NCBI RefSeq assembly: GCF_964204645.1
Contig: NC_134029.1
Coordinates: forward strand, 4,473,001-4,537,000
DNA: 64,000 bases
Direction of reading: 5' to 3'
From: Tubulanus polymorphus
Taxonomy: Eukaryota; Nemertea; Palaeonemertea; Tubulaniformes; Tubulanidae
The position numbers and the translations under genes were made by a program. How positions within the stretch are numbered: the stretch's first letter is position 1; every line of letters starts with the position of its first letter. The notes below the pieces were generated by a model. It did no database searches. It had not been told where the DNA came from and saw only the letters and a program-made list of their open reading frames with translations. Below are positions 567 through 61,700 of this stretch, in pieces.

Positions 567-730
567 TATGGAAGACCTCAGACGACATACGAGATATGAG
601 ATATAACATACGAGATATGAGATGCAACATACGAGATACGACATATGACATACGAGATACGACTTATTTACAGTCCGTCCGCTAGCGCCACCACAGTGTA
701 TGTTTTTTCAATATTTACTGCATATAAATC
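567..730 (+). repeat. Left terminal inverted repeat with 21-bp subrepeats
   Basis: The outer 19 bases are followed by about 3.7 tandem copies of a 21-bp unit beginning CATACGAGATA (starts at 586, 607, 628 and 649). After these come TTATTTACAGT and the CCGTCCGCTAGCGCCACC block. Subterminal repeats of this kind are typical transposase-binding sites in other DNA transposons; that role here is inference. Confidence 0.85.
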
Positions 731-1598
731 GTTTAACATGGTGACGCGTACAGTCATCGTCAATTATATGAAAACCAACATAGTCAACATTTTACTCAAA
801 CCAGAAATAGATTTCTTTTGGATAATGGACACCTGGACCGGACACAACGATATTAGGCCATACTGTGAACACCGTGGACGAGGCGCGCCGGCCGTTCCTC
901 TCCCGCGGGCGACGAAAAGTTTTTCAAATCACAAAACTGAAAAGATATCAAACTGTTCAAGTTCATAATATTATGCTATTTCTTGTCTTCCTTTGGTCTG
1001 AAAACGGCCTGGTGTTCAGGAGCCGGGGTTCCGGTTACTCGATGCCTACAGAAAAAATAACTACTGTTCACCGCTCGCCGTAACCGCCGGCTTTTCTGCA
1101 TCAGAAATCAAAATTCTAAAAAAAACTCCGCAGCCGGAAATCCCGCCCCCCCCCTTGTACCCCTCCTCCGCTGTTTGACACCTCTGCCTGAGTTCTTGAA
1201 TCCCAAACAACCCGGGAACCCGCACATCACCCTGGTATCCAGATTAAGAACTCCCGTGCTCTCTCTCAAGGTTTGAAATCCCCAGCTAAATTCCATCCCT
1301 ATCGAGCTACCGGGGTAGACTGGTGAGTCCACTAGACCAGCCGTTGAGAGTCGAGACTGGCCAGTTTTCGCTAAATGTCAGGGCAGTATGCGGCACTGTC
1401 TTTCTGAAGCCATAGTTTGGGGTCCTCCCCTGAAAATTTGTTCAATTTAGGTACTTGTGTATTCTGAAGGCTTTTTGGCTATCTTTCTTTTCCGACATCT
1501 TTCATGAAAAGGGCCAATGGCTGAATCTGAATAACTTTCATAATCGGAGAATCCAATTTAAGATCATTCTTATCAATTATCATGGCCAGTTTTAAAAC

Positions 1599-1890
1599 TG
1601 TTTATTGACAAAAGTACAGGAACCACATAAATAAGTCTTCAGCAAAACACAACAGCTCTTACATTTGTAAAGATAAGAGATCCATGGAAATATCAAGTAA
1701 CATTTCTTTAGACAGGGAATTAGCGGAACACCGGAACGTTGCTCGTATGGTGTGTTTGCACCCGTCGCAAAAAAACGTCGTGATAAACGAAATCAGCTGG
1801 ACTAGGGCCAGGAGCTGAGAGTGATACAATGGAACTCCATTCTGATATTTAATGAATAATTCATTCAATAAATTTATGATATCTTTAGTA
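1599..1890 (-). pseudogene. Protein-like remnant with polyadenylation signal inside the transposon
   Basis: On the minus strand an open frame of about 77 codons runs from just after a TGA near 1890 to a TAA at about 1659. It has no ATG near its start. The product has a protein-like composition and a CDGC motif, and ends SLQM. About 60 bases past the stop is CAATAAACAG, a canonical AATAAA signal, so the segment looks like a terminal exon plus short 3' UTR. It could be the decayed C-terminal end of the element's own transposase or a captured host gene fragment. I do not recognise the family. Confidence 0.35.
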
Positions 1891-2394
1891 TTCTTAATTC
1901 ATGTCCATGTTTCAATTCATTTGTTGAAATCATAGTACACTAAACAGATTCCGCGTGTGTCGGACTTTTTTAAGACTCTTTGGTCATCGGCATTCGTAAT
2001 ATACATACATCTCTCATTCTTCATCGAAAACACTCGATCGAACGCGAAGTTTAAACCCTTGACTAGGCGCAATTCTTAATTACCACCAATTTGAAGGGCC
2101 ATGGCTAACTCTTTTTGAGGGATTTTTGTACACCCAAAAATGGAATTTGAGGCGTTTTTGGTGGATTTAGGGGCTGTAGCCCCGTATTTGGAGCCAACTC
2201 GAATCACCGGACCATCGGTGTCTCACACTAAGAGTGGCCCACTGACGTCACAGCGAGAAGCCGGTCCCCGGGAGTGGTTGATCGAATATTTTTAAATATT
2301 TTTATTTTCAAATGAAACGTTTTTCGCTTATTGATATTCATAGTTAATGTACGCCACTGCCTGCGCACGTGTCGTAGTATACGCCGAGTAGATG

Positions 2395-2537
2395 TTGAAA
2401 AATATACACTGCGGTGGCGCTAGCGGACGGACACCCGTACTGTAAATAACGCATGTCATATGTCGTATCTCGTATGTTGCATCTCATATCTCGTATGTTA
2501 TATCTCATATCTCGTATGTCGTCTGAGGTCTTCCATA
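2395..2537 (-). repeat. Right terminal inverted repeat with 21-bp subrepeats
   Basis: Inverted copy of the left end. It carries only three units of the 21-bp repeat where the left has almost four. It also has a short extra segment between the TTATTTACAGT block and the CCGTCCGCTAGCGCCACC block. Confidence 0.85.
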
Positions 2538-7174: not shown

Positions 7175-55043
<47,869 letters not shown>

Positions 55044-57542: not shown

Positions 57543-58736
57543 CTATACGCACGTTCCGTTCTGTTTGCGGGAATCGGACAATTCGTAGGTGTAAGTACCG
57601 CGCGACCGCATCACATACGCCAGGTACGCTTTCTTGCAGCATACGCGCTGAAATAGTAACCGCAGCTCTTTGCGGAATACTTTCCCGGTCAGGCAGTAAA
57701 TATAAAATTTGCACGCGTAATGCGACATGCCGAATACTTCGAACGTAGTACGAACTGTACCGTAAACGAAATGTCTGTGCCATTGCGGATTGGTGGGTAC
57801 CTCGGATAGGGGTATTTTGATATCGCCCAATGGAAAGATCACGTACAAGGCATAGACGATAGTAACCGGCAATACGCCAATAATCAAGTAAAAAGATACG
57901 GCGAGTAACATGACCGTCGTGGCGCTCGTTTTCGGCACATTTTTACTGTTCAAATAAACGGCTTCGCTTTTCGATAGTTTACGCGCTACCTTGATAACTA
58001 AAATGTTAAAAATGAGCACCACCAGTGGAACGAGCACGAATACTAACACCTCCGAAATCCAAGTCCAAATCGACCAGATCGACGCCGTGCCGCCGTGTAA
58101 CGCCTCAGGTCGCGGTTTGCATGTGCCGCTCTGGCGATCGTATATGTAAAAGTATCCTTGAACTAGCGCCAAAACGAACGATATCGTGATCAGCAGTATG
58201 GTGACTTTAGTAGCCCTTCCGATCGTGCAGTATTTATCCCTTTTGAACGGAAAACACACGGATATGTACCTCTCGACCGTGAAGGCTAACACCAGCAACG
58301 GGGATAAGTACTGGAACGTGAGAAAAAACACCGGGAATCCTTCGCAGACGAACGGATGATCCATAGTCCCCACGTCCCAGGTCTCTTGCAATTCGAATAC
58401 GATATTGCTCAACAGAAAACAACAGTCGAATAAAGACAACGCGGCTAGATATATCCCGGATGAATGTCTCATACGTCGCTGTATCCAAACCATGAAACTA
58501 AGTATGTTTCCCGGTATTCCTAAGATCCACCAGATCGGCGTCACCGACCGGTCGATCTTCAACATAATCGTGTAATTATCGTAGAATTCGTTTTGAGTTC
58601 GGAATCCCTGGAAGACGCTGTACGTCGAGTTCGTCGTGTTCAGTAAACCTGTCGTGTCGTTATCTGAAAACGGCGCGCCGGTATCCGCATTTACCGCCGT
58701 GTAGGTCATTTCCGTAACCCCGGTCACCGCGTCCAT
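57543..58736 (-). CDS. Class A (rhodopsin-like) GPCR, peptide-receptor type
   Basis: 397 residues in one exon. The extracellular N-terminus has four N-glycosylation sequons (26, 33, 36, 54). Seven hydrophobic segments start at about 66, 93, 131, 173, 223, 271 and 324. Class A marks: GN at 76-77 in TM1, Asp104 in TM2, Cys131 and Cys206 for the extracellular disulphide, ERY at 155-157 and Pro237 in TM5. TM6 has GVLP, not CWxP; TM7 has KFYIY (343-347), not NPxxY. Helix 8 (GKVFRKEL) and Cys366-Cys367 follow. The tail ends TCV, fitting a class I PDZ ligand. The sequence resembles the expanded peptide-receptor-like GPCRs of lophotrochozoans; the ligand is unknown. It acts at the plasma membrane. 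ATG context is GGGATGG. Confidence 0.92.
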   Translation of the reverse strand: MDAVTGVTEMTYTAVNADTGAPFSDNDTTGLLNTTNSTYSVFQGFRTQNEFYDNYTIMLKIDRSVTPIWWILGIPGNILSFMVWIQRRMRHSSGIYLAALSLFDCCFLLSNIVFELQETWDVGTMDHPFVCEGFPVFFLTFQYLSPLLVLAFTVERYISVCFPFKRDKYCTIGRATKVTILLITISFVLALVQGYFYIYDRQSGTCKPRPEALHGGTASIWSIWTWISEVLVFVLVPLVVLIFNILVIKVARKLSKSEAVYLNSKNVPKTSATTVMLLAVSFYLIIGVLPVTIVYALYVIFPLGDIKIPLSEVPTNPQWHRHFVYGTVRTTFEVFGMSHYACKFYIYCLTGKVFRKELRLLFQRVCCKKAYLAYVMRSRGTYTYELSDSRKQNGTCV

Positions 58737-58750
58737 CCCGGAGATGATCT
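58737..58750 (-). promoter_or_regulatory. Splice acceptor and 5' UTR stub of the GPCR gene
   Basis: On the minus strand TTTTCTTTATCATTTCAG ends at 58749 and is followed by 12 exonic bases (58748-58737), then the ATG. The coding exon is therefore preceded by an intron. The 12 bases (ATCATCTCCGGG) are open in frame, so a longer N-terminus is possible but not needed. Confidence 0.7.
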
Positions 58751-61700
58751 GAAATGATAAAGAAAAGTGCGTCTATGTAACTCAAAAATAACATCTAATG
58801 ACTTATATACATTATATAGACTTTATATAATAATAACATACATGAATATAATTCACATGAAGAGCGTATAGTCGAGATGCAGATATGATTACAACTCTGG
58901 CAGGTGAGGATGTACACTAATCAAATGAAGAAAAGGTCAGAGAGGGAGCTAGAGAGGGGAAGATGATGTTTGTCTGAGAGAACGGATGCCGTTCATCTTA
59001 CCGTTTGATTACGCGCGCCGGAAATATATGAGTAACTGTCATAACGGATTCGTCGACTCGTTTTATTAGATATTAGTAACAGGCGTCTGTCCATATGGCG
59101 CAATAGCAATAAACCTCATCTGGATGTCAGCTATTTATCAGAAATACAACAAATTGACAGTTGTTTGTGTCATAGGTTACCGATGGTAATGCGCGATATT
59201 TCTCGCCCGCGCGACAAGTTTGTCTGTCGGCGCATGAAATTAACCGGTGTTAGCCTGGATTGACTCATGTCATCTTCAAAATAACGCGTTTGAACTTATT
59301 TTTTCATTCGTTTTTTTATTCAACTTCGAGATCAGTTACGATGCATTATAATGATACCGTGTGAATTAGGCCGATTATCAGCTAAACGTTAAGCTACATC
59401 ATATCATTAAAATCTTACTAATTTTTCCATACATCGTACGATTCCGCCGGGGCTTGAAGCAGAGGCTATACTTCATATGCGATGTTGGAGCTTTTCGTTC
59501 TCGTGACTATATTCGCGTAGTTTATTGTCAGAGTCACAACAAACTTCTTTGACAACTCGAAAACAGAAAGATTAAAAACCCGCGGTACACACATTTAAAA
59601 AGACAAGACGTTTTGATACGTCATGTATTTTCATTTAACATTTGTGGAAAAAAGTAAGTTTTTAATCATTAAAATTTGTGAGTATATAGTGGACCCTTAA
59701 ATCTCATTTTTACCGCCTGAATGTGGCCATTCTGCTGACTTAGACATGAATACGAATGGATCTTATAACGTATAACAAGACCAAATATATTTACCATGTA
59801 TATGATAATGAGTTAATATCAGTGGGTCATATGAAGAACATTCATTTATTTTTTTGTGATGAAACCTGGTACACACGCGTCTAGTCATGCGGCAGCCTGT
59901 GTCAGGCGCAACCGCAATCAGTCGAAACCGTCTGCGAGTGTAAACCGATTAATCGAGCGACGGTAGTTAAATGAAAAATGACACTTGACATTTTTACAAA
60001 AAATACTGATCCGATAGCATAATGTATTTCCACGCGTTAGGAAATGTTGTTTTGATGTAAGAAAAATGAATCCGAGTGAGGCGTGATTATTTCTGACGTT
60101 TTTAGGCAACTCGTTTAGTTAGTCAATGCCTTGAATTGCGAAAGATCTACCTTCCACGAATCTTAACTCACGAATGAAATAAATTCGATCATATCTGACC
60201 GTATAAAATAGTCATCATTCCTCGCAAACAATATGTAAATCGAAATGCCAGATGAAATATGAAAAATCTCTTGTCGTAATGATTCGTGTAAACACTATCA
60301 GTTACGTTCAGTCGAGCTTGTCAAACTTTTCAAGCCGCTGAAATGAATAACAAACGTTTTTTTCTTTTATCATTAACTTCAAATCTTTGTGGAATAAGAT
60401 CTTACAAAAACAAATTAATCGTCTCGAGGCAAACAGGCCTGTCTGCTAGTTTGTCGTTTGCTTGTAAACGTCTAGACTATTTTAACGGTGATCGCACGGA
60501 AAGTAATCTGAAGACGAAATGGATTATTTTTTTGTTCGTTTACTTAAGATTTTCATTTCGGCGAAAAGCGCAGTTTGACAATGACAAACGCTATAAAAAT
60601 AGAACCGAATACGCTTCATATTTCGCTTTCGCCTTGCACTTTCTGCAGCGTTCGTCAACGGAGATTCCGCTGATGCAGTTAATCCAATAGATATGAAAAT
60701 GAATCATCTCGGAAGATGCTTTCGGCTGATATAAACATGTTTCGATAAGCTTATACGACCGGGCAACGATGCATAGATTTCGTATCTAGTTATCCGGTTT
60801 ATCATGTCTTGAAGCTGTCGCTGCGGTATGTAATCATACCCGCAATAAAGCCGTGCGACGCAATCGTTACCGATTTTGGACATCGCCGACAATTGGCAGT
60901 TTATACTTCAAACTCATCTACGACATTTTCCATCTTCACGTGAACAATGACATCAATCGGGCAGCTCTTCGTCGTTTCGACTACTATACAGAACGTCACG
61001 GTAGTTATCGGTAAACCAATCCGAACGTCTCTCTCCGATGTTTCAGTATTGTCAGAGAGGATTCAATAGATCAAAAAGACTGAAAGACTCGTGTCATATC
61101 ATGATCCGACGCCAAACAATATTAATCAAATGCGCCGGAAAAATGATGGCTTCCGATCCGATTTGTATCCGGAAACCTAACGTATTACTTACGACCAGGA
61201 AAAAACGAGTATAGTACTCCAGCTGATGGGCACTGGCATAATAGTGCTTTAAACATAAAGCAAACATAAGATGATAAGAACAAAACGTAGGCCCCTAGTA
61301 TAGAATAGACTTAGAATATCTAACTGATATTGAATGGAATATTGAAGATACGGCACTTGAATGATAACAGTCGGTGACGGCTGGTGTGGAGCCAGTCAGT
61401 CGCCGTCATGGGGTGAAGATTTGAATTTGAATTTGAATTATCACGACGTATAAGCGGCGCTAAACCAGACGCGCGTTCAAATTAGATGAATCATTACGAA
61501 ACTGTCAATTCCAGGTATCAGAATTCGATGCGCTGCATGAACGCGTCTCCAGTGTTTTGAAGAAGTCCCGTATCATAAAGAGCAGCGAGCGAGGATTCGT
61601 CGTCGAACTCGATCGAGATCTCAACCAAAAAGTTCGCAGAATCTAAATCCCAAATCGATGAGATACGATTGTATGATCCTTTTAAACGGGAAACTTTCAC

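Follow-up and report, generated by a model that had tools for sequence, protein, structure and literature searches.

The 1,971-bp element that occupies positions 567–2537 of the window (the whole 64,000-nucleotide stretch of Tubulanus polymorphus DNA that was analysed) is a member of a dispersed mobile family whose other copies have the same boundaries, and it probably represents a non-autonomous IS3EU/GingerRoot-type DNA transposon; we put the probability of this assignment at roughly 80%.

The terminal inverted repeats of the element lie at 567–654 (plus strand, starting TATGGAAGACC) and 2450–2537 (minus strand, with final bases GGTCTTCCATA). Each arm measures 88 nt; the two are 99% complementary, and they are perfect over 85 bp from the tip, as described in the first-pass annotation of this DNA. 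The hexamer GTAAAG, read directly in the sequence, lies on either side as the left (561–566) and right (2538–2543) target-site duplication. Within the inverted repeats there are 21-bp tandem units, 3.6 copies in the left arm (585–659, plus strand) and 2.6 copies in the right (2466–2519, minus strand), and a subterminal inverted repeat of 35 nt (94%) has its arms at 673–707 (plus strand) and 2398–2432 (minus strand). A search of the window with the 20-bp end, allowing up to three mismatches, gave two matches, both exact, and 100 shuffles gave none. The longest of the reading frames inside the element that start with ATG, GTG or TTG is 107 amino acids, and by eye none of these frames is recognisable as a transposase. 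A microsatellite of about 35 ACATAT units (245–457) adjoins the element; elsewhere in the window Pfam finds a frame for a Rhodopsin-type 7-transmembrane receptor (57546–58772, minus strand) and an immunoglobulin I-set exon (53291–53677, plus strand).

Copies of the element across the genome

The genome searched consists of 267.8 Mb in 77 contigs. The first 20 bp of the element, with up to two mismatches, have 174 matches in it, and the reversed control pattern has none. Among the 100 matches listed, 71 are exact and 16 carry one mismatch; the resulting 87 ends lie on 12 contigs and form 30 convergent pairs and 27 unpaired ends. All 30 pairs were read, either whole or at both ends. Among these pairs, all from the matches listed, 20 span 1.8–2.1 kb, 29 have TATGG at both ends (the exception, L042, has TTTGG at one end), and 24 are flanked by an exact 6-bp duplication. 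Flanks were compared for 29 of the pairs (the 32 compared loci, with duplicate locus L031 excluded, minus L044–L046, which belong to a related family); 23 of these have an exact 6-bp duplication, two have one mismatch, and four (L012, L029, L030 and L038) have non-matching flanks. The thirtieth pair (L024/L057, C10:7505183–7526824) has GAATAT on either side. One of the unpaired ends among the 87, C4:18116268, is assigned to a related family on the strength of its longer sequence.

Of the 30 pairs, 17 were selected because they can be aligned from end to end; the distances between them average 2.1% (range 0.05 to 4.2%). L023, at 0.46%, is the nearest to the window copy. The closest two, L010 and L015, are 0.05% apart but have different duplications (GATTCA versus GTGAAC), which marks them as two independent recent insertions and not as products of a segmental duplication. 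Near-identical copies of this kind argue for recent activity of the window family. The first-pass annotation had described a 6-bp duplication, had suggested recent mobility and had pointed to a genome search with the element end and to the boundaries of other copies as checks; the results given above bear it out on each of these points.

The flanks of the 23 copies with exact duplications were joined and compared with other fetched DNA of the genome. At two of the 23 sites, those of L009 and L042, the joined flanks have an uninterrupted counterpart in repeats of L027 and L025, and the junction is free of gaps; judged against such uninterrupted repeats, insertion is precise. Matches that span the L033 junction carry no weight, since the distance between two copies there is 17 bp. 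The first base of the duplication is G or C at 22 of the 23 sites (binomial P about 1e-8 against flank composition), and positions 2–5 are A or T at 80 of 92 bases (binomial P about 6e-8, likewise against flank composition); the target preference of the family is S-W-W-W-W-N. A palindromic preference was also sought at the 23 sites but did not emerge: they have 41 complementary positions out of 138, with a null mean of 36.5 and a standard deviation of 5.9.

The probable IS3EU/GingerRoot assignment and its alternatives

The portion of PMC10045372 cited here groups IS3EU with GingerRoot and describes the termini of complete IS3EU families as always TA..TA and their target-site duplications (TSDs) as usually 6 bp; it also puts the size of this small eukaryotic transposon group at 45 families, 17 of them autonomous, in Repbase in 2022. 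For the IS3EU elements of rust fungi, an excerpt of PMC12730594 gives TAYGG..CCRTA ends, a terminal inverted repeat (TIR) of over 30 bp and a 6-bp TSD. The window element has TA..TA termini as well (here TATGG..CCATA), its family has the 6-bp target duplication, and its TIR of 88 nt at 99% is longer than the 30 bp of the rust-fungus description. Unlike the described IS3EU/GingerRoot elements, the window-family copies read are without a transposase, and the 21-bp tandem units inside the TIR may set the window element apart from other IS3EU families. Because no transposase was found, the assignment rests on the termini and the duplication length, which are weak characters when taken alone.

The ends and the 6-bp footprint fit IS3EU, so the window family looks like a new non-autonomous family within an already known, though little-studied, group. 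The label "unclassified" given to the element in the first-pass annotation is therefore not retained, since TATGG..CCATA ends with 6-bp duplications are IS3EU/GingerRoot features in the published excerpts. Its suggestion of a new mobile family holds in that there is a family of close copies, but the family fits IS3EU/GingerRoot, and novelty in any higher sense is not supported. As a member of this group, the element would be recognised at its TATGG...CCATA ends, and perhaps also at the 21-bp repeats behind them, by a DDE (rve-type) transposase, expected to have no HHCC domain and encoded elsewhere in the genome, which would mobilise it by cut-and-paste; the element would be joined to the two target strands with a 6-bp stagger, and repair of the gaps would leave the 6-bp duplication.

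Four other explanations of the element were weighed. It is unlikely that the element belongs to another or an undescribed superfamily (for example hAT6 or a new DDE group) that has TATGG..CCATA ends and 6-bp duplications by chance. No transposase was seen in the window family, hAT6 elements with 6-bp TSDs exist according to the excerpt of PMC12730594, and nine of the 12 related-family copies discussed below have no 6-bp duplication, all of which agree with such an origin; on the other hand, TAYGG ends, a 6-bp duplication and a long TIR together are the very combination published for IS3EU in that excerpt.

A non-autonomous Polinton/Maverick, mobilised through a Polinton integrase, is a very doubtful identity for the element. 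Polintons do occur in this genome (L054 encodes an rve integrase and a Pox_A32-like ATPase, and L024 a type B DNA polymerase), and the cited portion of PMC10045372 gives their TSDs as 6 bp, the same length as the window-family duplication. However, a Polinton nested in a copy of the family has its own ends, AGTAATAGGG..CCCTATTACT (AG..CT), and its own duplication, CTGGTG, whereas the outer element around it has TATGG..CCATA ends and GAATAT; this comparison of ends draws on one Polinton, read at both ends. Polintons also carry viral-type genes, unlike the window family.

A Dada transposon, one of the options offered in the first-pass annotation, is highly improbable. Dada duplications are 6 or 7 bp in the excerpt of PMC8869645, an agreement with the window family in length only. 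The same excerpt reports that many Dada elements insert into multicopy RNA genes, whereas none of the 23 joined empty sites here contains a tRNA (in a scan that had no positive control). Rfam matches were likewise absent from 16 loci, in which the element was in place, so that an RNA gene split by it might escape notice, and the family's targets are varied, A+T-rich sites. Finally, a unique local inverted duplication that is not mobile, named in the first-pass annotation as a finding that would overturn its reading, can be dismissed, given dispersed copies with the same boundaries: at least 87 ends with up to one mismatch on 12 contigs, exact 6-bp duplications at 24 of the 30 pairs among the matches listed, and joined flanks that match uninterrupted repeats.

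The search for a transposase and an autonomous copy

No transposase-coding copy was found among the window-family copies read. The first-pass annotation had proposed looking for a longer copy with a transposase between the same ends; none with a readable transposase was found, and the long copies that were read proved to contain nested insertions. L019, a 9,558-bp copy, is a 2-kb element into which a gag-pol, Gypsy-like by eye, has been inserted, and C10:7505183–7526824 is a family copy with the nested Polinton; both were rejected as autonomous copies, as were L029 and L030, which are without duplications. L025 is apparently an inverted duplicate of the left part of C10:7505183–7526824, lying about 182 kb away and having the same 10-bp outer flank.

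For seven of the 27 unpaired ends a locus of about 10 kb was read, and the other 20 were covered by 19 pieces of 251 bp. At the unpaired ends as sampled there was no recognisable partner transposase, the 251-bp pieces being too short to exclude one. Five of the 19 pieces match the element and 14 do not; one of the latter matches L042, two bear an inserted repeat, and for ten of the 14 the translations, inspected by eye, revealed no transposase. At two unpaired ends (L063 and L064) an apparent LINE 3′ end lies inside the TIR, again as judged by eye.

Integrase searches of the genome were dominated by other elements. The NF033577 profile gave 1,520 candidates, with at least 67 places scored; of the five places read (L049–L053), four are retroelement-like by eye and one is the L049 rve gene. 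The PF13683 profile gave at least 148 matches, and the L049 rve protein at least 150, of which 11 are close and 139 are 25–33% identical. When the listed matches of the NF033577, PF13683 and L049-protein searches were set by eye against the listed ends, the only one found within a pair was the Gypsy-like gag-pol of L019. Three of the 139 distant L049 matches were read (L054–L056) and represent one kind of integrase; in L054 the rve integrase has a weak chromodomain match (below the Pfam cut-off) and adjoins the Pox_A32-like ATPase, which together identify it as a Polinton. The L049 rve gene also led to two 7-kb loci, L058 and L059, whose shared part measures about 5.1 kb in the former and 4.4 kb in the latter. 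The two copies of this rve-coding element are about 99% identical and have no obvious long TIR; since the shared part has no TATGG..CCATA pair at its edges, it was not taken as the partner. Six head-to-tail copies at a spacing of about 1.03 kb, encoding the N-terminal part of an L049-type rve transposase, are present at C8:990641–996050.

Related families with the same terminal motif

A longer end pattern, which with up to three mismatches also admits the window family, has 240 ends genome-wide (control 0), of which 100 are among the matches listed. The terminal motif is common to at least four related families besides that of the window. These have ends in ...CCCTGAGACGACATCTTGAG (pairs of about 650–775 bp), ...CCCTGAGACGACATTGCCAG (3.2, 3.6 and 14.85 kb), ...CCCTGAAACGACATTACGAA (around 900 bp) and ...ACCTGAGACGACATTCTGAG (701 bp).

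Both ends were examined in 12 copies of these related families, namely L082, L044–L046 and eight others; two have an exact 6-bp duplication, one has a duplication with one mismatch, and nine have none. The exact duplications are GTATAC (C4:18116268) and ATAATT (C5:22718241–22733089, 14,849 bp), and the flanks with a single mismatch are the CTTTTC/TTTTTC of L082. One copy without a 6-bp duplication has GTTTT, 5 bp, on either side, and the related copy at C2:22543049–22543953 (L085, L086) lies between 17-bp direct repeats of GTCAGTCTTGGTAGTAC rather than a 6-bp duplication. The nine copies that lack a duplication make it less likely that the group as a whole follows a clean 6-bp rule. The 650–775 bp relatives often seem to have been multiplied along with a host repeat, so that their flanks are shared, and L044–L046, L093/L094 and L097/L098, which are among the nine, seem to lie inside another repeat; most of the failures of the duplication in the relatives may be the result of such secondary multiplication.

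As known from its ends, length and duplication, the 14.85-kb copy at C5:22718241–22733089 is the strongest candidate autonomous relative. It is conceivable, but improbable, that the TATGGAAG families are driven by an autonomous element of about 15 kb with extra genes, of which this is a copy. If that were so, the element of about 15 kb would be a giant among animal IS3EU-like elements, or would represent a sister superfamily, and at least five non-autonomous families, some of them with tandem repeats inside their ends, would derive from it. For the window itself, the element is only an ordinary non-coding insertion. At the level of the genome, these families form a cluster of relatives, one of them recently active, in a compact animal genome, and the window family has well-defined ends and a target preference and gives a starting point in the search for an active transposase.
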